From: Sphingobacteriales bacterium TSM_CSS
GTDB lineage: Bacteria; Bacteroidota; Bacteroidia; Chitinophagales; UBA2359
Length of the DNA: 64,000 nucleotides
Assembly (NCBI GenBank): GCA_002212985.1
Contig: NBMY01000117.1
Span: 1 to 64,000 of the forward strand
Reading direction: 5' to 3'
Part shown: piece by piece, positions 10,592-51,924 of the stretch
Layout of the letters: every line of letters starts with the position of its first letter
Numbering within the stretch: the stretch's first letter is position 1
Position numbers and translations under genes: made by a program
The notes under the pieces: generated by a model
Databases searched by the model: none
What the model saw: only the letters and a program-made list of their open reading frames with translations
What the model was told of the DNA's origin: nothing

Positions 10592-13500
10592 ATGTTACGC
10601 TTAAAACCCAAACAACAAAAACCGGACTCTGTTTTTACGGAGTTTGCACCCGAAACAAACTGGAAAGTGAGTTTACCAGATGCTGTAAGTCTTTATTTAA
10701 AAGTATTTACAAAGATTTCGGCTTGTTTTATTCTCTTTTTATTATTATCAGTTCTTGACTATGCACAGGCACAATCGGTAGGTTTTGGCATGAGTTCTTT
10801 AGCCGGAACAGGGCTGAATAACCCCACCTCCCTGCAATTTGGACCCGATGGACGGCTATATGTGGCACAACAGAATGGGGTAATAAAAATTTTTACCGTA
10901 CAGCGGGTAGCCGCCAACAATTACCAAATTACCGCCTCACAGCAAATTGATGTAATAGCCCAAATGCCCAACCGCAACGACGACGGAACGCTCAACAGTT
11001 CGGTTTGGGGCAGGCAGGTTACCGGTATTTTGGTAACCGGCACAGCACAATCGCCGGTAATTTATATTTGTTCCAGCGACCCCCGCATAGGTGCGGGTCC
11101 CACAGGCGAAGACAGCAACCTCGATACCAATTCGGGCATTTTGTCGAGGTTGAACTGGACGGGCACACAGTGGGTAAAAACCGATTTGGTGCGAGGACTG
11201 CCGCGCTCAGAAGAAAATCACGGTTCAAATGGTATGCAGCTGAACACTGCCACCAATACCTTATATATAGCACAGGGCGGGCATACCAATATGGGCGCAT
11301 TGTCGGCAAATTTCAGTTTTCACCCGGAGTATGCCTACTCGGCTGCAATTTTGGCGGTCAATTTGGCTGCTATTGGGAATGCTACTTACGATTTACCCAC
11401 CCTTGATGACGAAGACCGCGCCAACACCGGCACCACCGCAGGCTTTACCGACCCCAACGATCCTTTTGGCGGAAACGACGGTAAAAACCAGGCAATGCTG
11501 GTGCCCAACGGGCCCGTACAAATTTACTCCTCCGGATACCGCAATCCTTACGATTTAGTAGTTACTGCTTCGGGTAAAATGTACACTTTTGACAATGGAC
11601 CCAACAGCGGCTGGGGCGGCCCGCCAGCTTCCTGCATCTATGCCGTATCTGAACCCGGTACCTCGCAACCCGACCAGCTTCACCTCATACCACAGCAGGG
11701 TTTTTACGCCGGACACCCCAATTTAACCCGCGCCAACCGCAACAATACCTTTAATGTAACCAATCCGCAAACACCCGTTCCGGCAGGAATGGAAAACCCC
11801 GCCGAATGCAATTACCTCTACCCGGGCACTGCCGATGGTTCTTTGATTACCATACCGGCCTCTACCAACGGACTAACGGAGTACACCGCCTCCAACTTTG
11901 GCAACAACCTTAAAAATAACCTGTTGGCAGTATCATGGAACAACAAAGTGTACCGCATACAACTCAATGCAGCCGGCACCGCAGTTGTTCCCGGCGGGGC
12001 TACCGAACTTTTTTCGGGACTCACCAGTTTGCCCCTTGATGTTGTGGCACAGGGCGATGCAGGACCCTTTCCGGGCACAGTTTGGACTGCCAATGTTTTT
12101 GGTAACGACCCCATTTACATTTTTGAACCGAATGATTATGGCGGCTCTTCAACCGGTTCATGCGACCCCAACAACCTGCCCGCTACCGGCGATGCCGACA
12201 ACGATGGTTACTCCAATACCGATGAGCAACTCAACGGAACCAATCCCTGCTCGGCTGCCAGCAAACCGCGTGATAACGACAACGACATGGTATCTGATTT
12301 GGTTGATACCGATGATGATAACGACGGCATACCCGACCTTACCGATGCTTTTGCCACAGATAATACCAATGGCATTAACCATGTTATGCCATTTTCTATA
12401 ACATGGGATAACGATGGTTCAACGCCCGGAGGCATTTACAATACCGGTTTTACCGGATTAATGACTAACGGAACCACCAATTACCTGAACCAGTTTAATA
12501 TTGACCAAATGACCATTGGTGGCGCTGCCGGTGTGCTAACCATTGACAATGTGCCCGAAGGTGATGCTTTGGGCATTGGAAACACACAGCAATATGCATT
12601 TCAAACAGGGGTAAATGTACAGGGATCCACGGTGCCATATTGCCTGCACTCCCGAATTAAATCGCCTTTTGCCGGTTTTACCCCTGCCAATAACCAGTCA
12701 ATGGGGGTTTTTATAGGAACCGGAAACCAAAGCAATTACATTAAAATTGTAACCGCAGCCAACGGCGGTTTCGGCGGTATTCAGATCGTAAAAGAGCAAA
12801 ACGATGTGGTTGCCAGTTCTTTTATTTACTGGGCATCTATTCTGAATGCCAACTGGGTTGATTTATACCTTATCATAAACCCCGTTACCTTAACGGTACA
12901 GCCGGCCTACTCCATAAACAGCGGCGCAAGAATAAACTTAGGTGCGCCAATAACCATACCGGCTTCGTGGTTGCAGGTGCTTGCCGTGGGCATTATGGCA
13001 ACGTCCAGCGGCCCCGGCAGTCCGTTTCCTGCTGCATGGGATCTTATAGAGTTAAAAACCGACCCGCTTTCGGCAAACGGTGTGTGGCAAACGGTAAACT
13101 GCAATGGTTTTCCTTCTTGCACCAGCCAGCTTACCCCCCGCCGCGACAATGGCTTTGTTCAATCGGGCAATCAGTTTATTTTGCTGGGTGGCAGGGGCAG
13201 TTCATTACCGGTTAACCGCTACAGCCCTGCTACCAATGTATGGAGCAACGGCGCTGCGCCACCCGTAGAAATGCACCATTTTCAGGCCGTAGAAATGAAC
13301 GGGCTGATTTATGCCCCTTGTGCCTTTACCGGCAATTACCCGAATGAAACACCCCTTGCCGATGTGTATTACTACGACCCGGTTTCCAATGCATGGGGTA
13401 TCAGCACACAGGTGCCGCAGGGCAGGCGCCGCGGGGCCGCGGGTGCAGTGGCTTACAACGGCAAAATTTACGTGGTGGGTGGCATTACCAACGGGCACGT

Positions 13501-16500
13501 ATCGGGGTGGGTTCCGTGGTTTGATTCTTACAACCCGGCTACTAATACATGGACTGTGCTACCCGATGCTCCGCGCGCCCGAACCCATTTTAACGCTATA
13601 GTAAAAGATAACAAATTATATGTAATTGGTGGTCATCTTACCGGCGCCCCCGGCACTGCCACAGCTCCCGTTGCTGAGGTAGATGTTTATGATTTTGCCA
13701 GCAACAGTTGGTCAACTCTGCCGCCATCGGCCAATCTTCCTACTCCACGTTGGGGAACAGTTGCCGGCACTTTAGGCAACGAAATTATGATTATTGGCGG
13801 GCAAAGCCCCACCGCAGCCAATGCCAACACCCGCACCGAAGCCTTAGATGTTTACACCAATACATGGCGAACCCTGTCGCCCATGCTGGAAGGCCGCCAC
13901 GGCACACAGGCAATTACTTCGGGCAATGTTATTTATGTAGCTACCGGTTCGTCCAATGCCGCCGAAACTGCCAATAACGGTAAACTTGAATCTTTCAGTT
14001 TATTTAATGCTGTGTTACCCGGCGGCACCGCTACGGTAAAAGGTAATTTCAGCGCCAGTCCTGCATCGGTTTCTTTTGGGTATGTGGCAACCGGCGCATC
14101 GGTAACGCAAACCATTTCGCTCATCAATGCAAGCGGCAATCAGGCATTGGTTATCAACAGTTTAACCGTATCGGGAAGTACCGCCTTTAGTGTATCTGCT
14201 TCCAATACTTTGCCCTTAGTAATAGCGCCCGGACAGCAAGTGGCTGTTTTAGTGGTATTTGCACCAGCCGCAACAGGCACACACAATGCCACGCTAACCG
14301 TTAATAATACCGGTACCACTGCTGCACTTACCATTCCGTTGAACGGCAATACCGAAACCTTTGCCACCCGTATTAACTCTGGCGGCAATGCTTTTACTAC
14401 CACAGATGGTAAAAACTTTATTGCCGATACATATTTTAACAACAGCAGCGGCACTTTTACTACATGGCTTACAACACCCATTGCAAATACTGCCGATGAT
14501 GCACTGTACCAAACCCTGCGAAGCGGCTATGCCAACAGCCTTACTTATGCCATACCGGTTCCGCAGGCGGGTTATTATACGGTGAAACTGCACTTTGCCG
14601 AGTTGCAGTTTGCCGCCGTAGGGCAACGCATATTTGATGTGAACATTGAAGGCGGCAACCTGGAACTGAACGACTATGATATTTATGCTGATGCCGGGGC
14701 CAACAGCGCATCGGTTAAGACTTTCAGTGGTATAGCCGTTACCGATGGAGTACTGACCATTAATTTTACCGCTGTTGTTAATGCTGCCACCATTGCCGCC
14801 ATTGAGGTAATAGCCGAAGGAGGCACCCCTCCGCCGCCAGTGCAGCCTGTTTTGCTGGTAACCAAAAACAGTACGCTCAACACCGGCGATACAGCCGTAA
14901 AATTGCGCCTTGAAAGCAATGGTTATACAGTAGTAGCCCAAAGCCAATCTGTGGCTAATGCGTCCAGTGCAACGGGTAAAAGTTTGGTGGTTATATCGGC
15001 GTCAACAGATGCATCGGTAGTAGCTGCCAAATTTAAAAATGTTACTGTACCGGTGTTAACATGGGAGGCTTGGATTTATGATGATATGAGCATGACCGCT
15101 ACCTTGTCGGGTACACATTATGGGCAAACCACCACCAACCAAACCCAGCTGGTAATTACTAATGCTGCACATTCTATGGCTGCCGGTTTAAGCGGAACAG
15201 TACCGGTATATATTACCGGAAACCGGCTAATGTGGGGGCAATCCAATGCAAACGCCATACAAATAGCCACTGTGCCGGGCGCAACTTCGCAATCCGTAAT
15301 ATTTGGTTATGAAGCGGGCGCTGCCATGAACGGAGGTTTTGTTGCACCTGCCCGAAGAGTAGGCTTTTTCCTTAACTCCAATTCTGCCGGCTCTTTAAAC
15401 ACAAACGGTTGGGCTTTGTTTGATGCTGCTGTTTGCTGGGCAATGAATTGTTCGGGTACGCCGCCACCCCCGCCACCGCCGGTCAATACGCCTCCCCAGT
15501 TTTCTGTTAGCCCTTCATCAATAACGGTTAACGCTAATTTTCCCACTCCGCAGGTTATTACCGTAACCCCCTCGCCTGTACCTCCGGCAGAGGCTACACA
15601 AACGGTAACTTACACGCTATCTCCGGCATCGGTTAATTTTGCTATTGTTAACATTAACAATGCCACCGGTATGGTAACCATTACCGCCATGCCCAATTTG
15701 TATGGTACCCAAACGTTTTCTATTATTGCCAACGACGGTCAAACCATCAACAACACAGCCTCTCAAAGTTTTACCCTTACGGTAAACCCGCCATCGGGCA
15801 GTAACAACACTGCTATCAGAATAAACTGTGGCGGGCCGGCATTTACCGTATCGGGGGGGCAAACTTTTTCGGCCGATGCGGCCTTTGCAGGGGGCAGCAC
15901 CTCACTTACTACCGCTGCCATTGCCAACACCACCGACGATTTGCTGTACCAAAGCGAGCGATACGGGTGGGCTAACGAATTAGCCTATAATATACCAGTG
16001 CCGCTTGCAGGCACTTACTCGGTAAAGTTGCATTTTGCCGAAATTTTCTGGACTGCCTCCAACCAGCGCAAATTTGATGTGAATATTGAGGGCGGCCCAG
16101 CCGAACTGACCAATTTTGACATTATTGCACAAGCCGGCGGACCCAATACGGCTATAGTGAAACAGTTTGACAACATAAGCGTTACCGATGGCATATTGAA
16201 TATACAGTTTACCGCAGTGTTGAATGCCGCCAAAGTTTCGGCCATTGAAGTTTTGGGGCAAACATCGGGCGGTACCACCGGCAATACGCCCCCCACTTTT
16301 GTACTTTCGCCGGCCGCAATAACCGTACCTGCCAATTTTACCATCCCACAGATTGTAACCGTAACACCCGGCGCCGTTCCGCCCGCAGAGGCAGGACAGG
16401 TAGTAACCTATACCATTACGCCCTCAGCGGTGGCATTTGCCAATGTTAGCATTAACGGCAGCACCGGGCAGGTTACCATTACAAGTGTTGCCAACCAGTT

Positions 16501-17410
16501 TGGCACCCAAACTTTTACCGTTACCGCCAACGACGGGCAGACTACCAACAACATTGCCATTCAAACATTTACGCTTACTGTAACACAGCCCACCGGCGGC
16601 GGAACCGGTGCTGCTATACGCATTAATTGTGGCGGCGGTTCATTTACCGACTCAAACGGAAATACTTTTGCCGCAGACGCATATTTTGCGGGCGACGGTA
16701 CATTTGCCACCATGTCTGCCATTACTGGTACAGTAGATGATGCCTTGTACCAAACCGAGCGTTACGGTTGGGCCAATAACATGGTTTACAACATACCCGT
16801 TCCGGTTGCCGGATATTATACGGTTAAACTCCATTTTGCCGAAATTTACTGGACAGCCGTTGGGCAACGGGTTTTCAACGTAAACATAGAAGGCGGCCCG
16901 GCCGAATTGACCAATTTTGATATTCTCGCTCAGGCAGGCGCTTCCAATACTGCCATCATTAAAGAGTTTTCGGGCATTTATGTCAATGATGGCATGTTGA
17001 ACATTAATTTCAGCGCGGTGGTAAATGCCGCTAAAATAGCTGCCATTGAGGTTATAAGTCAGGGAACCGGTGGTGGGCCCGCATCGGGCGGAAACAGTTC
17101 GGGTAAACAGGTAGCTAATGAAAGTTCTGATATGCAATGCAGCATTTCACTTTCCAATGAGAATGTTCTGGTTTATCCCAACCCATTTACCAACGAATTG
17201 TTTGTGCAGCTTGTCCCCGAATTAACAGGGCTTTTGAAAATTAGCCTCCAAAATTTACAAGGACAGGTTGTTTGGCAACAAGCGGTTAACAAACAAGCGG
17301 GACAAAACGGGCAAACCCTCAATTTCGACGAGCTGCTTCCGGGGTACTACCTGTTGCATATTGAGGCAGAAAACGGCAGTACCGCAACCAAAAAACTTTT
17401 GAAGTACTAA
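10592..17410 (+). CDS. Giant mosaic T9SS surface protein: propeller, Kelch, three malectins
   Basis: A 2272-residue secreted protein built of carbohydrate-related modules. After an unusually long 40-residue n-region comes a signal core (residues 42-57) with cleavage near Ala60. Residues about 62-515 resemble a glucose/sorbosone dehydrogenase-type beta-propeller (NPTSLQFGPDGRLYVAQQNG, SGYRNPYDLVV). About 523-593 are Asp-rich thrombospondin type-3-like calcium repeats (DADNDGYSN, DTDDDNDGIPD). About 597-817 look like a concanavalin-type jelly roll; 834-1134 are Kelch repeats (KIYVVGG, KLYVIGG, EIMIIGG); 1147-1250 a choice-of-anchor-D/ASPM-type Ig domain. Malectin-like domains occur at about 1258-1410, 1740-1890 and 2007-2157, the last two each preceded by a cadherin/Ig-like module (1632-1732, 1898-2000). 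Residues about 1420-1620 form an unassigned domain. The C-terminal 85 residues (VYPNPFTNELFVQL, ending KKLLKY) are a T9SS type A sorting domain. Likely cell-surface sugar binding; enzyme activity unproven. Confidence 0.88.
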   Translation: MLRLKPKQQKPDSVFTEFAPETNWKVSLPDAVSLYLKVFTKISACFILFLLLSVLDYAQAQSVGFGMSSLAGTGLNNPTSLQFGPDGRLYVAQQNGVIKIFTVQRVAANNYQITASQQIDVIAQMPNRNDDGTLNSSVWGRQVTGILVTGTAQSPVIYICSSDPRIGAGPTGEDSNLDTNSGILSRLNWTGTQWVKTDLVRGLPRSEENHGSNGMQLNTATNTLYIAQGGHTNMGALSANFSFHPEYAYSAAILAVNLAAIGNATYDLPTLDDEDRANTGTTAGFTDPNDPFGGNDGKNQAMLVPNGPVQIYSSGYRNPYDLVVTASGKMYTFDNGPNSGWGGPPASCIYAVSEPGTSQPDQLHLIPQQGFYAGHPNLTRANRNNTFNVTNPQTPVPAGMENPAECNYLYPGTADGSLITIPASTNGLTEYTASNFGNNLKNNLLAVSWNNKVYRIQLNAAGTAVVPGGATELFSGLTSLPLDVVAQGDAGPFPGTVWTANVFGNDPIYIFEPNDYGGSSTGSCDPNNLPATGDADNDGYSNTDEQLNGTNPCSAASKPRDNDNDMVSDLVDTDDDNDGIPDLTDAFATDNTNGINHVMPFSITWDNDGSTPGGIYNTGFTGLMTNGTTNYLNQFNIDQMTIGGAAGVLTIDNVPEGDALGIGNTQQYAFQTGVNVQGSTVPYCLHSRIKSPFAGFTPANNQSMGVFIGTGNQSNYIKIVTAANGGFGGIQIVKEQNDVVASSFIYWASILNANWVDLYLIINPVTLTVQPAYSINSGARINLGAPITIPASWLQVLAVGIMATSSGPGSPFPAAWDLIELKTDPLSANGVWQTVNCNGFPSCTSQLTPRRDNGFVQSGNQFILLGGRGSSLPVNRYSPATNVWSNGAAPPVEMHHFQAVEMNGLIYAPCAFTGNYPNETPLADVYYYDPVSNAWGISTQVPQGRRRGAAGAVAYNGKIYVVGGITNGHVSGWVPWFDSYNPATNTWTVLPDAPRARTHFNAIVKDNKLYVIGGHLTGAPGTATAPVAEVDVYDFASNSWSTLPPSANLPTPRWGTVAGTLGNEIMIIGGQSPTAANANTRTEALDVYTNTWRTLSPMLEGRHGTQAITSGNVIYVATGSSNAAETANNGKLESFSLFNAVLPGGTATVKGNFSASPASVSFGYVATGASVTQTISLINASGNQALVINSLTVSGSTAFSVSASNTLPLVIAPGQQVAVLVVFAPAATGTHNATLTVNNTGTTAALTIPLNGNTETFATRINSGGNAFTTTDGKNFIADTYFNNSSGTFTTWLTTPIANTADDALYQTLRSGYANSLTYAIPVPQAGYYTVKLHFAELQFAAVGQRIFDVNIEGGNLELNDYDIYADAGANSASVKTFSGIAVTDGVLTINFTAVVNAATIAAIEVIAEGGTPPPPVQPVLLVTKNSTLNTGDTAVKLRLESNGYTVVAQSQSVANASSATGKSLVVISASTDASVVAAKFKNVTVPVLTWEAWIYDDMSMTATLSGTHYGQTTTNQTQLVITNAAHSMAAGLSGTVPVYITGNRLMWGQSNANAIQIATVPGATSQSVIFGYEAGAAMNGGFVAPARRVGFFLNSNSAGSLNTNGWALFDAAVCWAMNCSGTPPPPPPPVNTPPQFSVSPSSITVNANFPTPQVITVTPSPVPPAEATQTVTYTLSPASVNFAIVNINNATGMVTITAMPNLYGTQTFSIIANDGQTINNTASQSFTLTVNPPSGSNNTAIRINCGGPAFTVSGGQTFSADAAFAGGSTSLTTAAIANTTDDLLYQSERYGWANELAYNIPVPLAGTYSVKLHFAEIFWTASNQRKFDVNIEGGPAELTNFDIIAQAGGPNTAIVKQFDNISVTDGILNIQFTAVLNAAKVSAIEVLGQTSGGTTGNTPPTFVLSPAAITVPANFTIPQIVTVTPGAVPPAEAGQVVTYTITPSAVAFANVSINGSTGQVTITSVANQFGTQTFTVTANDGQTTNNIAIQTFTLTVTQPTGGGTGAAIRINCGGGSFTDSNGNTFAADAYFAGDGTFATMSAITGTVDDALYQTERYGWANNMVYNIPVPVAGYYTVKLHFAEIYWTAVGQRVFNVNIEGGPAELTNFDILAQAGASNTAIIKEFSGIYVNDGMLNINFSAVVNAAKIAAIEVISQGTGGGPASGGNSSGKQVANESSDMQCSISLSNENVLVYPNPFTNELFVQLVPELTGLLKISLQNLQGQVVWQQAVNKQAGQNGQTLNFDELLPGYYLLHIEAENGSTATKKLLKY

Positions 17411-17532
17411 TTGCTACCTATAAAACCAAACAAGAAACAAACCTTTATTAAACAGTAATTTAAACCCTTTTAAAAATTTAAATCCTTCAATGCTGTTCGG
17501 CATTTTAGTTCAACCCAAACAACAATTTTCTC

Positions 17533-17913
17533 ATGAAAAGAAAAAAAATTCTGGTCGTAGAAGACGACAACAGCATTCGTATGTTGTTAAGTTGCCTTTT
17601 AAGTAAGCAATATGAAGTAACAACAAAGAAAAATGGTTTAGAAGGCATGAAGTGGTTAGATTTCGGAAATTTACCCGATGCTATTCTTACCGATATTCAT
17701 ATGCCCGGCTTTGATGGTTTCAGTTTTCTGAAAAATGTAAGGCAAAGCGGTTTTTTCTCTTCCATACCGGTTATTGCATTGTCTGGTAGTGAAAGAAGTG
17801 GTGAAATGAAGCGGTTTCTTGATATGGGCGGCAATGATTTTCTGCCCAAACCGTTTGACCCTAATTTGCTTTTCAATGTGTTGAATAAACATATTGGCGA
17901 TAAGCAACAATAA
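17533..17913 (+). CDS. CheY-like stand-alone response regulator
   Basis: A 126-residue receiver domain without output domain. The acidic pair is Glu10/Asp11/Asp12 (VVEDD), the phospho-acceptor is Asp54 (LTDIHMPGFDG), and the conserved Ser and Lys are in VIALSG and FLPKPF. It should relay phosphate from a histidine kinase to a partner by protein contact. No kinase is adjacent; the neighbours are a giant surface protein and a sugar transferase that itself carries a degenerate receiver, so control of polysaccharide synthesis is a reasonable inference. It starts 122 bases after the giant gene. Confidence 0.92.
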   Translation: MKRKKILVVEDDNSIRMLLSCLLSKQYEVTTKKNGLEGMKWLDFGNLPDAILTDIHMPGFDGFSFLKNVRQSGFFSSIPVIALSGSERSGEMKRFLDMGGNDFLPKPFDPNLLFNVLNKHIGDKQQ

Positions 17914-18028
17914 TTTTAAAGCAGATTCACCCTCATTTCCTTCAGCCTGCCACAGCTATTCTGAAATATTTAATTTGTATTGCAGTTAGTTGTGCACGGC
18001 ATCTGGAAAACAAAACAAATGCAATAAA

Positions 18029-19210
18029 ATGGAACAAAAAAATATGCTTTACTACAGAAGCGCTCCAAATATTACCGATACTTTTACATCTGGTGCAGTA
18101 GCTACCGAGTTAATTAACCACAGAAAGTTATGGGTAATAAGCAATGATGTAACTTTTGAAGAGTCTTTCTGTCGGGTAATTGGGGAATCTTCCGTGTATT
18201 ATACGGTAAATGCTGCCAATAATTCAGATACTGAAATAGCCAAATTGCTGGCAAGCCGTAAAAGTGAGTTGCCTTTTGCATTTATTTGCGATTTAGGTTG
18301 TTTTGAAACAACAGGGTTCGAAATTGCAATTCGACTGCAAAAATATAGCCACTTAAAAAACATTCCGTTTATTGTTGTTGCAAAACATAATTTTGCGGGC
18401 AATGATTTGGTAAAAATGGGGGCAATACTGCAAAGAACGGGGTTGGTAGATGACTTTTATACCTTGCCCATAGATTGGGAACAAGTAGGCAACCGCATTG
18501 AGTTTTTAAGTCGGCATAAAGCAGACAGAGAGCTAACGCCAAAAGAAGAGGACATTGTCCACACAATAAAATTGCCGTTTGCGAAAAGGCTTTTTGATAT
18601 TGTTTTTTCTTTAATGGCACTAATTATTTTCGGGCCAATAATGTTGTTTATTGCCTTGGCCATAAAACTTGAATCGAAAGGGCCAGTATTCTATAAATCA
18701 AAAAGGGCAGGAGCGGGATACCACGTATTTGATTTTTACAAGTTCAGGTCAATGACACAAGCAGCAGAGCAGGAACTTGGTAGTTTGTCCCATCTAAACC
18801 AATACGCCTCAAAAAAGGAGGAACAACAGGCACAAGGTAACAACATGGCTTTTGTAAAACTAAGCAACGACCCAAGGGTTACCCGAGTCGGCTGGTTTAT
18901 TCGTAAAACCAGTTTAGATGAATTGCCGCAATTGCTTAACGTATTAAAAGGCGATATGTCTGTTGTAGGAAACCGTCCACTGCCTTTGTACGAGGCGCAA
19001 CAATTAACCCGCGATGTTTGGGCAAAGCGGTTTTTGGCCCCGGCCGGTATTACCGGGCTATGGCAAGTAACTAAGCGCGGCAAAACCAACATGTCGGCCG
19101 AAGAGCGCATTCAGCTCGATAATGATTATGCGCAAAATTGTAGCTTTAAGTTAGATTTGCTCATTATTTTAAAAACTTTACCTGCAATGCTGCAGAAAGA
19201 GGCTGTATAA
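18029..19210 (+). CDS. Pseudo-receiver / undecaprenyl-phosphate sugar phosphotransferase fusion
   Basis: A 393-residue protein from the ATG at 18029. Residues about 33-162 follow a response-regulator receiver pattern: Asp40 in the acidic pocket and Asp88 (FICDLGCF) at the acceptor site. The conserved Thr/Ser is replaced by Ala118 and the conserved Lys by Leu146 (YTLPIDW), so it is a pseudo-receiver. One membrane helix follows (residues about 189-207), then a bacterial sugar transferase domain of the WbaP/EpsL class: FYKFRSMT, DPRVTRVGWFIRKTSLDELPQLLNVL, VVGNRPLPLYEA, AGITGLWQVT. This enzyme moves a sugar-1-phosphate onto undecaprenyl phosphate and so starts polysaccharide chains at the inner membrane. 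Two glycosyltransferases follow on the same strand. The N-terminal domain may sense the stand-alone receiver upstream (inference). Confidence 0.88.
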   Translation: MEQKNMLYYRSAPNITDTFTSGAVATELINHRKLWVISNDVTFEESFCRVIGESSVYYTVNAANNSDTEIAKLLASRKSELPFAFICDLGCFETTGFEIAIRLQKYSHLKNIPFIVVAKHNFAGNDLVKMGAILQRTGLVDDFYTLPIDWEQVGNRIEFLSRHKADRELTPKEEDIVHTIKLPFAKRLFDIVFSLMALIIFGPIMLFIALAIKLESKGPVFYKSKRAGAGYHVFDFYKFRSMTQAAEQELGSLSHLNQYASKKEEQQAQGNNMAFVKLSNDPRVTRVGWFIRKTSLDELPQLLNVLKGDMSVVGNRPLPLYEAQQLTRDVWAKRFLAPAGITGLWQVTKRGKTNMSAEERIQLDNDYAQNCSFKLDLLIILKTLPAMLQKEAV

Positions 19211-19241
19211 AGCATCTTTTTTGTTGCAAAACTAAAACCAC

Positions 19242-20171
19242 ATGAAACAGCCGCTCGTATCAATTATTACCGTTAACTATAATCAGCCTGTCTTAACCTG
19301 TGAATTACTTGCATCGGTTAAAAAACTTCAATACCAAAATTACGAGGTTATTGTGGTTGACAATGGCTCAAAAGTAAATATGCCCGATATTATCAAGCGC
19401 AACTATCCTGATGTACAACTCATTTGCAGCAATACAAATTTGGGCTTTGCAGGGGGTAATAATTTAGGCATTAAGGCGGCACACGGAGAATACCTTTTTT
19501 TGGTAAATAACGATGTAGAACTTAACCCCAATGTTTTGGATAAATTATTGCCTGTATTTGAGCAGTACAAAAACGCCGGAGTAGTATGCCCCAAAATTTG
19601 CTACCACCTTTCGGCGGCAAGCAAAGATGGGAAACCGCTTATACAATATGTTGGTTATACACCGGTAAACCCCTATACTGCCCGTAACAGTACCATAGGA
19701 GAATATGAACCCGACCAAGGACAATACAACAAGATTACACAAACGCCCTATGCACATGGAGCAGCCATGCTCATTAGCAGAACCGCAATTGAAAAAACCG
19801 GTTTAATGCCCGAAAATTATTTTTTATACTATGAAGAGTTAGACTGGTGCGAACAAATACGGCGTATGGGTTTCAGTATTTGGGTAGAACCTGAAGCAAC
19901 GGTGTATCACAAAGAATCCATGTCGGTAGGTAAGACCAATCCCCTTAAAACCTATTTTCTTACCCGAAACCGCATTTTATTCATGCGCCGTAATGCCAGT
20001 ACATGGCAACTTATTGTTTTTCTGCTGTTTTTTACCTTTGTAACCCTGCCCAAAAATATTGTTCTGTATATTGTAAAAAGACAATATACCCACTTGCGTT
20101 CATTTTTACAGGGTGTATTCTGGCATTTGGGGGTCAAAAAAAATAAATTGTATCATGTTAATCCTGCCTGA
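19242..20171 (+). CDS. Family 2 glycosyltransferase (rhamnosyltransferase-like)
   Basis: A 309-residue GT-A glycosyltransferase. It begins VSIITVNYNQP, followed by EVIVVDNGS, the NTNLGFAGGNNLGI segment typical of WbbL/rhamnosyltransferase-like GT2 enzymes, and a metal-binding LFLVNNDVEL (NND in place of DXD). The YYEELDWCEQIRRMGF motif carries the acidic catalytic residue. A hydrophobic segment near residues 258-280 would attach it to the membrane. It lies 31 bases after the sugar transferase and 5 bases before the next glycosyltransferase, so all three are likely one transcript making an oligosaccharide or exopolysaccharide. The sugar donor is not predictable. Confidence 0.92.
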   Translation: MKQPLVSIITVNYNQPVLTCELLASVKKLQYQNYEVIVVDNGSKVNMPDIIKRNYPDVQLICSNTNLGFAGGNNLGIKAAHGEYLFLVNNDVELNPNVLDKLLPVFEQYKNAGVVCPKICYHLSAASKDGKPLIQYVGYTPVNPYTARNSTIGEYEPDQGQYNKITQTPYAHGAAMLISRTAIEKTGLMPENYFLYYEELDWCEQIRRMGFSIWVEPEATVYHKESMSVGKTNPLKTYFLTRNRILFMRRNASTWQLIVFLLFFTFVTLPKNIVLYIVKRQYTHLRSFLQGVFWHLGVKKNKLYHVNPA

Positions 20172-20176
20172 AACAT

Positions 20177-21421
20177 ATGGAATCTTTTGTGACTTTTTTA
20201 GTTAAGACAGCAAGTCTGCTTGCCCTTTTTTTTCTTTTGTTTCCTTTTATTGCAACGGTCGTTTCTTTTTTGGGCGGTAAAAGAGATAAAGCCCGATTTG
20301 GCAATATGCATAAGGAGGCGAATGAAACTGCCGATTTTGGTTGCATTATTACCGCATACCGAAATTTAAACATTGCCCTCCCGGCGATTGATGCCTTGCT
20401 GAAACAAAATTATAAAAATTATCATGTTTACCTGATTGCAGATGACTGCGATATTTCCGAACTTGCCGGCAGCAGTTTTCCCGATGGCAAGGTAACGGTG
20501 TTAATGCCCTCTGAACCATTTCATGCAAAGGTAAAATCCATACAGTATGCAGTTGAAAATTATGTTCAACCGCACACCCATACCGTTGTGTTTGATGCCG
20601 ACAACCTTGCCGCCCCCGATTTTTTAATGGAGATGAACCGTTATATACAGCAAGGCTACCGGATTGTGCAAGGGAAACGAACAGCCAAAAACTTAGACAC
20701 CATTTATGCCTGCGCCGATGCAACCGGAGAAATATACAAAAACTACATAGAACGTTATGTGCCTTACCTGCTTGGTTCATCGGCTACTATAGCGGGTTCG
20801 GGCATGGCGGTTGAAACCGGTTTACTAAAAGAATTTTTATATAGCCCAGAAATAATTCAGCTTTTGAAGGACGGCAGGGTGATTGTAGCCGAGGACAAAA
20901 AGCTGCAAAACTTTTTGCTTAACCGGCAACAGGTTATTGCTTTTGCCGCAGAGGCTGTAGTGTATGATGAGAAGGTAAAAGCTGCAGCACAGGTAAAACG
21001 GCAGCGCACAAGATGGCTCTATGCCTATTTTCAAAACATACCACAGGCGGCAAGACTTACTGTCGGGGGTATTGGCGGCTTTAACCGAAATTTGGTTATT
21101 GCCGGCATTTTTTCACTCATTCCGCCTCTTTTTATATTGTTATTTGGTTCTGTATTGCTGGCGTTGATTAATTGCGGTTTGTTGGACGGCGGGTGGTTTA
21201 TGGTTATGATATTGGGAATTGTGTTTTTTATTGGTAATATTTTTTGGGTGCTGTGGTTAAACAATGCGCCCCGGCAAATATGGCAGGCACTTTGGGGATT
21301 GCCGTTGTTTATTATTTATCAAATGCTGGCGTTGTTTCATATTAAGCAGGCCAGTAAAAACTTTATGCACACACAACATTCGGCAACCGTAGGTATTGAT
21401 CAGGTTGGGCAGCAGCAGTAG
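20177..21421 (+). CDS. Membrane family 2 glycosyltransferase with QRxRW motif
   Basis: A 414-residue membrane glycosyltransferase. One N-terminal helix (residues about 9-33), then a GT2 domain: VYLIADDCD, VFDADNLAAPDFL (DXD), GSGMAVE, VAEDKKLQNFLL with the catalytic acidic residue, and QRTRW, the Q(R/Q)XRW acceptor-binding motif of processive enzymes such as cellulose, chitin and hyaluronan synthases. At least two or three C-terminal membrane helices follow (residues about 295-385). It could polymerise or extend a chain and pass it through the membrane, but it is shorter than BcsA-type synthases and lacks PilZ. It is the last gene before a strong terminator. Confidence 0.9.
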   Translation: MESFVTFLVKTASLLALFFLLFPFIATVVSFLGGKRDKARFGNMHKEANETADFGCIITAYRNLNIALPAIDALLKQNYKNYHVYLIADDCDISELAGSSFPDGKVTVLMPSEPFHAKVKSIQYAVENYVQPHTHTVVFDADNLAAPDFLMEMNRYIQQGYRIVQGKRTAKNLDTIYACADATGEIYKNYIERYVPYLLGSSATIAGSGMAVETGLLKEFLYSPEIIQLLKDGRVIVAEDKKLQNFLLNRQQVIAFAAEAVVYDEKVKAAAQVKRQRTRWLYAYFQNIPQAARLTVGGIGGFNRNLVIAGIFSLIPPLFILLFGSVLLALINCGLLDGGWFMVMILGIVFFIGNIFWVLWLNNAPRQIWQALWGLPLFIIYQMLALFHIKQASKNFMHTQHSATVGIDQVGQQQ

Positions 21422-21456
21422 CTACCGGTTATTGCTCTGTTGCCGGTATTTGGCAT

Positions 21457-21496
21457 AAAAAAAGCGGCTTTGCCTAACAGGGGGAAGCCGCTTTTT
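21457..21496. terminator. Bidirectional terminator between convergent genes
   Basis: Stem AAAAGCGGCTT with AAGCCGCTTTTT across a 13-base loop; A-run on one side and T-run on the other make it work on both strands. It separates the glycosyltransferase operon (plus) from the T9SS protein (minus). Confidence 0.85.
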
Positions 21497-21514
21497 GTAA
21501 ACCTAATGATGTTG

Positions 21515-22585
21515 CTATTGAATGATTAATTTTACCGTTTGCCTGCTTTGGTTGGTGGTTAGCTCAAGCAAATACAAGCCCGCTGGTAAGTTTTCGGCAT
21601 TAAAATTTAAGGTTTGGCTGCCCGGTTGCAGGTATCCGCTAAATAAATTAGCTACAAGTTGCCCGGCTGCATTGTAAACCGTTACTGCTGCATTGCCGGC
21701 CTGTGTCAGGTTAAGCATAACTGCTGCGTTTTGTTGCATGGGGTTGGGGTACACATTTACCGATACACCATTTTGAACCTCACTTATGCCCACCGGTTCA
21801 ACAGAGTCGTCAAAACCGTCTAATTCAATGTATCGGGCAATAATGCTGGGTTGAGGCGATCCGTTTACCTCTTCCGAAGAAATACTGAAGAAGGGGTAGG
21901 CCAGTTTCGGGTGATACCAGGCATACGTTTCAACGGTATATTCAAACGGGTCGAAACCCGGAATGGTTTGGGTATAATTTTCAATAAAATGCAGGCGTAC
22001 TACATTGTGAATGGTTCCGTAGGGCAATACCAGGGTGCCGTAGGCATCGGCGTTTACGGTAAAACTGCCGCTTTCCGTTACATTTGCCGTTCCGCTGGTA
22101 TAAGTTGCCGAAAAGTCGTCGATATGAGCATTGCCGTAGGTAAAAGGGTAGGGCAGCAGCACTTTCGGGTCGGTGTAATTCACTGCAATGGGGGTTGCGG
22201 CATTGTTTACAAATCCGTTTTTCAGGAATGCAGCATCAGATATATTAAAAAATTCGTAATTAGCTGTATAAGAACCGTATTCAATACCTGGGTTGTAGGC
22301 TATGGCAATGGTTGAGTTGGGAAACGACGCTCCGAATGGTGTGGCATTTGGTACAACAAAAGTACCTGTTTTGACATTTACCATAGACAATGATTCGAAA
22401 TTCCATGTAATATTAGCTCCCGATGCGCCTTGGGTAATAGCGCCGGTGTTTACCCTTGAAATGTTAATGATGGTGCCCGGCTGCGGGCTTGGGTTGTAAT
22501 TATTGCTCAATACGGGTTGAGCGCCAAGATAGTACGGCAATAAGCAGGCAATTAATACAATGGCGAGGGTGGTTACTTTTTTCAT
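21515..22585 (-). CDS. Secreted T9SS-sorted protein, unknown function
   Basis: A 356-residue protein with a signal peptide (residues 1-22, LAIVLIACLLPYYLGAQ) and a C-terminal T9SS type A sorting domain starting near residue 278 (VNVYPNPMQQNAAVMLNL, LPAGLYLLEL, final KLIIQ). The intervening beta-rich region (Asn/Thr/Tyr-rich, with repeated aromatic strands such as YNPGIEYGSYTANYEFF) matches no family I can name; similar proteins occur widely in Bacteroidota. It is predicted to be released or tethered at the outer surface. Monocistronic: terminators flank it on both sides. Confidence 0.82.
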   Translation of the reverse strand: MKKVTTLAIVLIACLLPYYLGAQPVLSNNYNPSPQPGTIINISRVNTGAITQGASGANITWNFESLSMVNVKTGTFVVPNATPFGASFPNSTIAIAYNPGIEYGSYTANYEFFNISDAAFLKNGFVNNAATPIAVNYTDPKVLLPYPFTYGNAHIDDFSATYTSGTANVTESGSFTVNADAYGTLVLPYGTIHNVVRLHFIENYTQTIPGFDPFEYTVETYAWYHPKLAYPFFSISSEEVNGSPQPSIIARYIELDGFDDSVEPVGISEVQNGVSVNVYPNPMQQNAAVMLNLTQAGNAAVTVYNAAGQLVANLFSGYLQPGSQTLNFNAENLPAGLYLLELTTNQSRQTVKLIIQ

Positions 22586-49698: not shown

Positions 49699-51924
49699 TT
49701 AATTTTTAACCACTTTTGCAGTAGCAACATGGTTGCCGTTGCTGAGGGTAACAAAATAAATGCCGGCAGCGTAATTGCTGATGTCTATGCGCAGATTGTT
49801 GCTGCCGTTTAAGGCTGCCATGCTAAAATTGTTCACCAAACGGCCGGTCATATCATAAACCGAAGCCTGAATATTGCCGCCTTTTGCGGTAAACCATACG
49901 TTTACGGCATCGGAAGCAGGAACGGGCGCTACCTGTGTAATGGCAAAGCCATTTTGGGCAACAGCCGTTTCTATACCCACCGACAGGGCGTTGGTTAAAT
50001 CGGCACAAGCGCCAATAACGTTAATGAGAGCTTGCAGGTCGGCAATGGTGGTAACGCTCAGCACGGTGGCCAGTTCGGCATCGCTCGACAATACGCCGTA
50101 AACGGTGTAACCTGTGGTAGAGCCGGTAACGGTAAAGCTGCCATTGGCGCTGCTTTGAACAATATTACCGCTGCCGTCAACCAGCAGGTACAGGAAGGTA
50201 TAGCCTGCCGTGGTAGTATAGCCGGCAGCCGTTGCGGTAATGGTATTGCCGCTTTGGAAAATATTGGTAATAGAACCGGCATCGGCAATGCAAACACCGC
50301 CACAGGCTTCTACCGAAATATTGTCAACAAAGAAGTTGGTGGTACCACCGCCAAAGCAGGAACTTTCAAAAGCCAGCACGTGGTTGCCGCCATCGGCATA
50401 GGCAGAAATATCAACCGTTACCAGCGTATAATCGGCATACGAAGCAACTTCCGATTCGTTTACCATAAATACTTCGTTATCATCAACGGTTACGCGCATA
50501 AAGTCTTGCCCGTTGGTGGAGTTAACAGGAATAGTCAGATAGAAGGTAAGCGTAGCAGTCGGAGCAGTAATGGCAATGGTTTGTGTAATGGAGCCATCTT
50601 CAACGGCATCAATGCCGCCAAACCAGCACCAGAAAGTACCTGCGTAGGCGTTATTGGTTCCGTTCGAGCAGGAGGGGTCGCAAAGCGGGGTGCCAAAATT
50701 GGTAGAGAATTGAGTCCAAGCGGTAGCGCCTTCTTCAAAACCGCCATCGGTTACGCGCTCACACTCGGTGGGGCAGGTTTCGGTAAAAGTTTCGGTAGAA
50801 TCACAGGCGGGGTCGCCATTGCTGATACTTACCGAAACTTCGGTGCCCGATTCAAAGGGTCCAAAAGAGTAAGGGCCTGCAACGGTAATGGTTTGGGTGG
50901 TTTGCCCGGCGGTAATGGTAAAAGAGCCGGTAGCGCCTGTGTAAACAACATCGGCGCTGATAGAAAATTGTTGGTTATCGCAATCCAAAACTGTGCTAAA
51001 GTTCACCACCGGGCAGGTGGTACAGGCGGGGTTGCCGTCTTCTAAGAAGTTAACAGGGAAACAAACGGTCTGCGTACAGGCTGCATCAAGGGTTAAGTCG
51101 TTAAATCCGGCAGTTGCTCCCGCGGTAGCATTCCCAAACACGCTGGAACAGAAGAAATAAGAACCTACCGGAACCTGTGTGCCGTCGTTCAGGAAGTTGA
51201 TGGGTGAAGTAGGGTTGTTTGCCTGAATAGGGAAAGCGCCGAAATAAGAAGCATCGGTATTGGGGGCTGTATTGCCGGTAAGGTCGGCGCCGGCAACAAA
51301 CCATACATAACCCGATACTGAACCGGGCGTATTGGGCGCTACAGCGCCGGTAACGGTCAGGTCGGTGGTTTCACCAAAGCAAATGTCGGTTGTGCCGTCA
51401 ATAACACCGGGGTTTACGGTAGGGTCATCACAGGCAACCGGCGGTGCGCATTCTACACCCGAGTTGGTAGTAACGGTAGGTACGCCGTTGTCATCCTGCT
51501 GAATGGCGCTGCCGCAGCCGCCAACGGTGGTAATGGTAAACCAAACGGTACCATCAACAGTAGCGTCAAAATCAATGGTACAGCCGGTGGCAAAACCCAA
51601 AACGGTTCCGCCGGTAACACTGCCCGATGCGGCTGTACCGCCTTCAATTACGGTAATAAACGCTTCGGCGCCCCATACGGTAGGGCTGTAGCCGTCGCAG
51701 ATGCTGAAGGTGTAATTGCCGCCGGCAACTACTGTGGTAAAGTAAATTTCATTTTTCCAAGCGGCATAAGGAGCCGAAACCGACTGCCCGTTACAACCGG
51801 CAATGTCAATGCCCTGATCGGTATAGGGTCCGCCGGCATAGGTTAAACATTGTGCATTGGCAGAAAAACTTGCTGCCATTAAACCCATAAGGGCTGCAAA
51901 AACAACGAGTGTAAATTTTTTCAT
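49699..51924 (-). CDS. Secreted Cys-rich beta-sandwich protein with T9SS signal
   Basis: A 741-residue protein with signal peptide (residues 1-24, ending SANAQ) and a C-terminal T9SS type A sorting domain (about residues 660-741: VAPVPASDAVNVWFTAKGG, YDMTGRLVNNF, YAAGIYFVTLSNG). In between are several Thr/Gly-rich beta domains with many paired cysteines, likely disulfide-linked, and a jelly-roll-like segment (about 398-540, DGGFEEGATAWTQFSTNFG to FFVDNISVEA) of the carbohydrate-binding type found in secreted Bacteroidota proteins. No catalytic motif. Probably a surface adhesin or matrix protein. It shares a divergent promoter region with the methyltransferase gene. Confidence 0.85.
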   Translation of the reverse strand: MKKFTLVVFAALMGLMAASFSANAQCLTYAGGPYTDQGIDIAGCNGQSVSAPYAAWKNEIYFTTVVAGGNYTFSICDGYSPTVWGAEAFITVIEGGTAASGSVTGGTVLGFATGCTIDFDATVDGTVWFTITTVGGCGSAIQQDDNGVPTVTTNSGVECAPPVACDDPTVNPGVIDGTTDICFGETTDLTVTGAVAPNTPGSVSGYVWFVAGADLTGNTAPNTDASYFGAFPIQANNPTSPINFLNDGTQVPVGSYFFCSSVFGNATAGATAGFNDLTLDAACTQTVCFPVNFLEDGNPACTTCPVVNFSTVLDCDNQQFSISADVVYTGATGSFTITAGQTTQTITVAGPYSFGPFESGTEVSVSISNGDPACDSTETFTETCPTECERVTDGGFEEGATAWTQFSTNFGTPLCDPSCSNGTNNAYAGTFWCWFGGIDAVEDGSITQTIAITAPTATLTFYLTIPVNSTNGQDFMRVTVDDNEVFMVNESEVASYADYTLVTVDISAYADGGNHVLAFESSCFGGGTTNFFVDNISVEACGGVCIADAGSITNIFQSGNTITATAAGYTTTAGYTFLYLLVDGSGNIVQSSANGSFTVTGSTTGYTVYGVLSSDAELATVLSVTTIADLQALINVIGACADLTNALSVGIETAVAQNGFAITQVAPVPASDAVNVWFTAKGGNIQASVYDMTGRLVNNFSMAALNGSNNLRIDISNYAAGIYFVTLSNGNHVATAKVVKN

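Follow-up and report, generated by a model that had tools for sequence, protein, structure and literature searches.

The closest named relatives of the protein analysed here are RefSeq entries entitled "malectin domain-containing carbohydrate-binding protein" (Hymenobacter, Rufibacter and Halobellus plasmid records), which contain the same core at 42-48% identity over 98-99%. That name covers the malectin part only and leaves the core unnamed, and the order of modules varies between members. Several described families resemble individual parts of the protein. The glucose/sorbosone dehydrogenase (GSDH) family (PF07995; E. coli YliI/Asd, sGDH) and CAZy AA12 have a propeller fold, a catalytic His and an Arg-Asn pair in common with the core; unlike these enzymes, the core lacks the PQQ-anchoring Lys/Arg/Arg and is fused to a TSP3 linker and a jelly roll. 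In GH43 beta-xylosidases with a C-terminal jelly roll, which Foldseek also finds with the core, a propeller is likewise followed by a jelly roll, but the whole-model superposition is poor (rmsd ~20) and no sequence relation was seen. Malectin (PF11721; CAZy CBM57) is represented by three domains scoring far above the Pfam cut-off, although these copies sit in a bacterial mosaic and the first lacks the ERYG tyrosine. Finally, the C-terminal domain scores above the cut-off for type A cargo of the type IX secretion system (T9SS; TIGR04183), attachment in the host genus being predicted from sequence. In Porphyromonas, according to excerpts of one paper (PMC7468200), the C termini of T9SS cargo proteins are conjugated to A-LPS, PorU is the proposed sortase, and WbaP, a predicted glycosyltransferase, serves A-LPS synthesis specifically.

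The window, i.e., the whole stretch of 64,000 nucleotides that was analysed (Sphingobacteriales bacterium TSM_CSS, contig NBMY01000117.1), contains at 10592-17410 on the plus strand a single intact ORF of 2272 aa, stop included, as a previous sequence-only reading had proposed. Each domain named in that reading was recovered by Pfam/NCBIfam, profile comparison, modelling or Foldseek, malectin and propeller folds among them, and an alpha/beta domain that it had overlooked lies at residues 1417-1622, between malectin 1 and Ig module 1. This giant protein is a real, unusual mosaic, and it belongs to a broad unnamed family annotated as malectin-domain protein. Its closest congeners are in Sphingobacteriales bacterium TSM_CSM 10 (L040; 92% over the N-terminal part) and in UBA2322 (L041; 71%). 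The protein is organised as follows.

10592..17410, plus strand: secreted mosaic protein of 2272 aa, whole ORF with stop (ORF reading; orthologs in two congeneric genomes)
10592..10774, plus strand: N-terminal region, residues 1-61, with a hydrophobic stretch, a probable signal peptide to near AQAQ (sequence reading)
10775..12145, plus strand: core part 1, GSDH-fold beta-propeller, residues 62-518, with H210, R317 and N318 (Pfam, profile, model, alignment)
12146..12373, plus strand: core part 2, TSP3-type acidic linker, residues 519-594, probably calcium-binding (Pfam, conservation in core rows)
12374..13069, plus strand: core part 3, concanavalin/DUF1349-like jelly roll, residues 595-826 (model, Foldseek)
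13106..14011, plus strand: Kelch propeller, residues 839-1140 (Pfam)
14033..14353, plus strand: ASH/choice-of-anchor-D Ig domain, residues 1148-1254 (Pfam/NCBIfam)
14360..14821, plus strand: malectin domain 1, residues 1257-1410 (Pfam)
14840..15457, plus strand: unnamed alpha/beta module, residues 1417-1622 (without Pfam or PDB sequence relative)
15485..15790, plus strand: Ig-like module 1, NTPP...VPPAE type, residues 1632-1733 (sub-threshold Pfam, alignment)
15809..16264, plus strand: malectin domain 2, residues 1740-1891 (Pfam)
16283..16588, plus strand: Ig-like module 2, residues 1898-1999 (sub-threshold Pfam, alignment)
16610..17065, plus strand: malectin domain 3, residues 2007-2158 (Pfam, match to solved malectin)
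17165..17410, plus strand: T9SS type A C-terminal sorting domain, residues 2192-2272, and stop (Pfam/NCBIfam)

The first finding of this study concerns the core, i.e., the 765 residues (62-826) made up of propeller, acidic linker and jelly roll. The propeller, which had been read as sorbosone dehydrogenase-like, is weak in Pfam, the GSDH model scoring 21.4 bits on the whole protein (under its 25-bit cut-off) and 26.7 bits, just over, when the N-terminal part is scored by itself. Profile-profile comparison with 30 GSDH rows, one of them YliI, recovers it clearly (E 2.7e-16), a match that needed the 30-row set, as single-sequence comparison of the core with YliI alone gave none. An AlphaFold2 model of the core (pLDDT 91.9, pTM 0.91) superposes on PQQ-dependent sugar dehydrogenases and AA12 with Z 25-31 and an rmsd of ~3 over ~300 residues; the structural matches also include a hetero-Diels-Alderase, a propeller lactonase and hedgehog-interacting protein (HHIP) with heparin. 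The predicted calcium repeats are visible in the sequence as TSP3 repeats with weak Pfam matches, and the jelly roll is borne out by a Foldseek match to 3mep (TM by target 0.70), which we take to be a member of the DUF1349 family.

Conservation within the core was assessed after a scan in which the N-terminal 835 residues of four orthologs served as queries. It yielded 164 loci, the best 80 of which, representing 79 distinct loci, were kept, and the 76 of these 79 with a full core were aligned with the window to give 77 rows. Many Asp/Glu positions of the TSP3 linker are kept in at least 75 of the 77 rows. Ten residues of the core are invariant in all 77 (H210, N213, N233, R317, D321, N335, N338, Y372, S424 and D483), while N318 and E430 are found in 76 and H375 and W341 in 75. 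In the profile alignment, H210 corresponds to the catalytic His of the 30 GSDH rows and R317/N318 to their Arg-Asn pair; in these rows the three residues are each present 30 times out of 30. We assume for GSDH enzymes that the His is catalytic, that the Arg-Asn pair binds PQQ and that the Lys/Arg/Arg residues hold the PQQ carboxylates. The Lys, Arg and Arg of Asd align, in an assignment based on alignment only, with N450, L480 and L482 of the core, so that the basic residues are not kept; position 482 is Leu in 74/77 rows. In the GSDH control set these residues are not universal either (Lys in 10/30, Arg in 18/30 and Arg in 17/30).

These residues bear on what the core might do. One reading is that the giant protein is an extracellular PQQ-dependent sugar dehydrogenase equipped with binding modules, in keeping with a GSDH fold at Z 25-31 and the retained His and Arg-Asn. 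The combination of a kept His/Arg-Asn site with a PQQ clamp replaced, by alignment, in a manner also seen in part of the GSDH controls, lowers this reading to a very improbable one. Alternatively, the protein could be purely structural or adhesive, its propeller being a non-catalytic glycan binder as in HHIP, a protein of GSDH fold solved with heparin according to the entry titles and matched here at Z ~22.8. Many modules of the giant protein are indeed binding modules, but about 12 polar residues of the core, with His, Arg, Asn, Asp, Tyr and Glu among them, vary little or not at all across many phyla and one haloarchaeon, which is probably more than a scaffold would need, and we regard this alternative as unlikely. 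Tentatively, we suggest that the core may be the constant part of an unnamed family of extracellular enzymes spread across bacterial phyla and haloarchaea, in which a propeller of quinoprotein type with its His/Arg-Asn site, but without the usual PQQ clamp, would act on polysaccharides and interchangeable lectin modules would choose the polymer. Automatic annotation names these giants after their malectins and overlooks the nearly constant core. Should that core prove to be an enzyme, one assay would account for a whole class of proteins, with members in Bacteroidota, Planctomycetota, Gammaproteobacteria, Verrucomicrobiota, Actinomycetota and haloarchaea.

The second finding is that this core is spread over many phyla and that its surroundings are variable. 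Among the best 79 of the 164 loci, it occurs in Bacteroidota, Planctomycetota, Pseudomonadota (Granulosicoccaceae, Chromatiales), Verrucomicrobiota, Actinomycetota, Eisenbacteria, Krumholzibacteriota, Ignavibacteriota, Rhodothermota, Chloroflexota and one haloarchaeon, many of these rows being MAGs in which the assignment of a contig may be wrong. Outside the genus, the core in these best 79 loci is 45-57% identical to that of the window. It is rare in Bacteroidota, with 10 of 395 sampled genomes positive at E up to 1e-30, the window's own counted. In a tree of the core inferred by a quick method (LG+G4), the window groups with TSM_CSM, UBA2322, a more distant relative (G004) and one Ignavibacteriales MAG, in a half that also holds Planctomycetota and Pseudomonadota rows, while 31 of the 36 named Bacteroidota rows lie in the other half. 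This placement would be compatible with old paralogy or with transfer. Around the core, the 57 complete relatives carry malectin (43), ASH (38) or Kelch (21) modules, or none of the three (5), in 39 different orders. The order core-Kelch-ASH is found in 17/79 loci and in the window, and ASH precedes the core in most rows from Planctomycetota, Granulosicoccaceae and Eisenbacteria; of 29 entries in the list of orders abbreviated ASH-C, which also includes ASH followed by a CTD, 23 have ASH before the core by hand count. In these sequences the core is thus the fixed part, and the malectin, ASH and Kelch modules about it are reshuffled. We found no paper on the core, nor on malectin together with T9SS, among open-licence PMC papers.

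Several side observations were made in this comparison. A 648-aa Kelch protein without the core (L009, in G031) is 42% identical to residues 823-1255. One locus with a match in Sporocytophaga (L115, 10001-13290) has 12 stops in one frame, presumably through a frameshift or an insertion. In 12/80 neighbourhoods, large proteins of one similarity cluster are encoded close to the core gene, and the one that was scanned (L093, 14887-18402) combines ricin-B lectin repeats with TSP3 and a T9SS tail.

The modules downstream of the core are for the most part as first read, with the exception of their supposed history. Malectin is matched three times by Pfam (E 1.2e-101; 337.9 bits for the protein against a cut-off of 23), and malectin 3 matches a solved malectin at E 1.9e-10. 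Malectins 2 and 3 keep the Tyr of the ERYG motif and an aromatic pair (FW, YW), aromatic residues being presumably the ligand contacts of malectin; malectin 1 does not, the ERYG tyrosine being missing from it. The Ig modules that precede malectins 2 and 3 give only sub-threshold matches to Big_9/He_PIG. These Ig modules had been described as near-copies, and the two Ig-malectin units as the product of a recent tandem duplication. That description does not hold, as residues 1632-1890 and 1898-2157 are 65.6% identical in amino acids (62.7% in their Ig parts) and 65.9% in nucleotides, with a dS of 1.95 that is near saturation. The orthologous units in the sister species TSM_CSM 10 are 89.2% and 87.7% identical to those of the window (dS 0.69 and 0.61). 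A recent duplication is thus ruled out, the paralogous units being far more different than the orthologous ones, and the duplication predates the split from that species and may be as old as the genus. Compared with UBA2322, the second units are 74.9% and the first units 61.8% identical; the two units of UBA2322 are 70.8% identical to each other (dS 0.97), possibly as a result of conversion or of a separate event there. Over longer times the number of modules shifts, as seen in G004 (L042), whose protein combines 10 Ig with 5 malectin modules and lacks both Kelch and ASH.

The Kelch repeats are matched above the cut-offs (E 4.4e-41; 117.6 bits for Kelch_1 against a cut-off of 20.1, and 140.5 for PF24681 against 50), and the ASPM-type Ig domain is matched by Cep192_D4/ASH/choice_anch_D models (best E 8.8e-14). 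The alpha/beta module at residues 1417-1622 gave no match in Pfam and no sequence relative in the PDB. Twelve copies of it occur in 8/198 genomes of the order, in large secreted proteins (L157-L165), with the motifs DDMKMT and APARRVGFF (window 14840-15457), and from the order of strands and helices we would guess that it is Rossmann- or GATase-like. One copy (L157, G009 contig C178) lies in a 2083-residue frame that also contains a canonical GSDH domain (E 5.4e-22). An AlphaFold2 model of residues 1147-2272 built from 3 rows had a pLDDT of 44.6 and was not used.

The third finding is the association of the giant gene with a small set of polysaccharide genes. That it lies upstream of such genes on the same strand was already apparent from the window, in which a cassette of four genes follows it, here given from domain scans.

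17533..17913, plus strand: cassette gene 1, stand-alone response-regulator receiver (REC)
18029..19210, plus strand: cassette gene 2, PF02397 sugar-phosphate transferase with an extra N-terminal domain
19242..20171, plus strand: cassette gene 3, family 2 glycosyltransferase GT2a
20177..21421, plus strand: cassette gene 4, family 2 glycosyltransferase GT2b, PF13641 type

The three genomes examined in the genus (the window's own, UBA2322 (G001) and G002) all have this set beside the giant gene, in the same order of giant gene, REC, sugar transferase, GT2 and GT2; in UBA2322, the genes outside this five-gene block differ from those of the window. Among 20 related genomes, the cassette is present in six (G000-G004 and G009); the core is present in 4 of 20 genomes of the family, all four within these six. 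For GT2c, another glycosyltransferase, the same six genomes have orthologs of 60-68% identity (100% in its source, G004) and the rest of the 20 have matches of 28-34% only, so that matches of at least 60% are confined to the six. In G004, which belongs to another genus, the giant gene is divergent from GT2c, and in G003 GT2c is divergent from the cassette. Of the evidence on function, these two separate placements beside genes of a single polysaccharide set are the strongest. Against a role on the polymer speak the ERYG-less malectin 1, the separate contigs of giant gene and cassette in G004, and the cassette without the giant gene in G003 and G009, from which it follows that the polymer can do without this gene. 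Outside the genus, among the best 79 of the 164 loci, 7/77 loci are flanked by a relative of the sugar transferase against 0.64 expected, an expectation computed from the density of PF02397 genes in 43 of the host genomes (183 genes in 253.1 Mb) rather than from the surroundings of other surface-protein genes; the seven are not fully independent, as L073 and L088 are both from Hymenobacter with similar spacing. The other 70 loci have no such sugar transferase in the retrieved flanks, some of which are short.

Export by T9SS is predicted. The C-terminal signal is matched by Por_Secre_tail (E 7.9e-11) and by the T9SS type A model (E 2e-11; 43.7 bits against a cut-off of 23), and the T9SS component that we searched for, SprA, is encoded in the genome (SprA_N, E 2.0e-144). 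Since a T9SS type A signal and a PF02397 sugar transferase thus meet at one locus, the adjoining cassette could build a glycolipid that anchors the giant protein together with other T9SS cargo of type A, as excerpts on A-LPS and WbaP in Porphyromonas would suggest (PMC7468200), making the glycan an anchor and not a ligand. We consider this quite improbable, because this genome has other genes with T9SS tails away from the cassette, the cassette is restricted to 6 of 20 related genomes while 59 of 60 genomes have some match to the giant protein, mostly through the T9SS tail, and none of 10 scanned neighbouring proteins is of the Wbp/Vim kind.

On the basis of the domains, conservation, gene neighbourhood and sprA observed here, we propose, with about even confidence, that the giant protein is exported by T9SS to the cell surface and is devoted there to an exopolysaccharide or surface polysaccharide of the bacterium itself; export, ligand, calcium binding and catalysis are predictions. 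As its gene lies beside surface-polysaccharide genes, the protein probably acts on that polymer or is retained in it. Its place on the surface would be due to the C-terminal signal, the core would keep hold of the polymer and might also alter it chemically, the acidic linker would probably be loaded with calcium, and malectins 2 and 3 together with the Kelch and Ig modules would add avidity and reach. Of the two kinds of ligand suggested earlier, the polymer of the neighbouring cassette is thus plausible, the co-occurrence of cassette and GT2c giving it comparative support, and a host or plant glycan finds no support here; the relatives are isolates and MAGs of many phyla. The link to one small polysaccharide gene set offers a concrete first candidate substrate.

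A few minor observations concern the rest of the window. A motif that we scanned for as the Bacteroidota-type promoter has 8 matches in the window against 5.7 expected, none of them near the giant gene, and scans of 17300-21700 for promoters and terminators did not rise above chance. Two more proteins with T9SS tails and no other notable Pfam domains are encoded at 49702-51924 and 21518-22585. The sugar transferase of the cassette has ~180 extra N-terminal residues (18029-18625) that match no Pfam model and are poorly conserved, and our guess is that they are a degenerate receiver.
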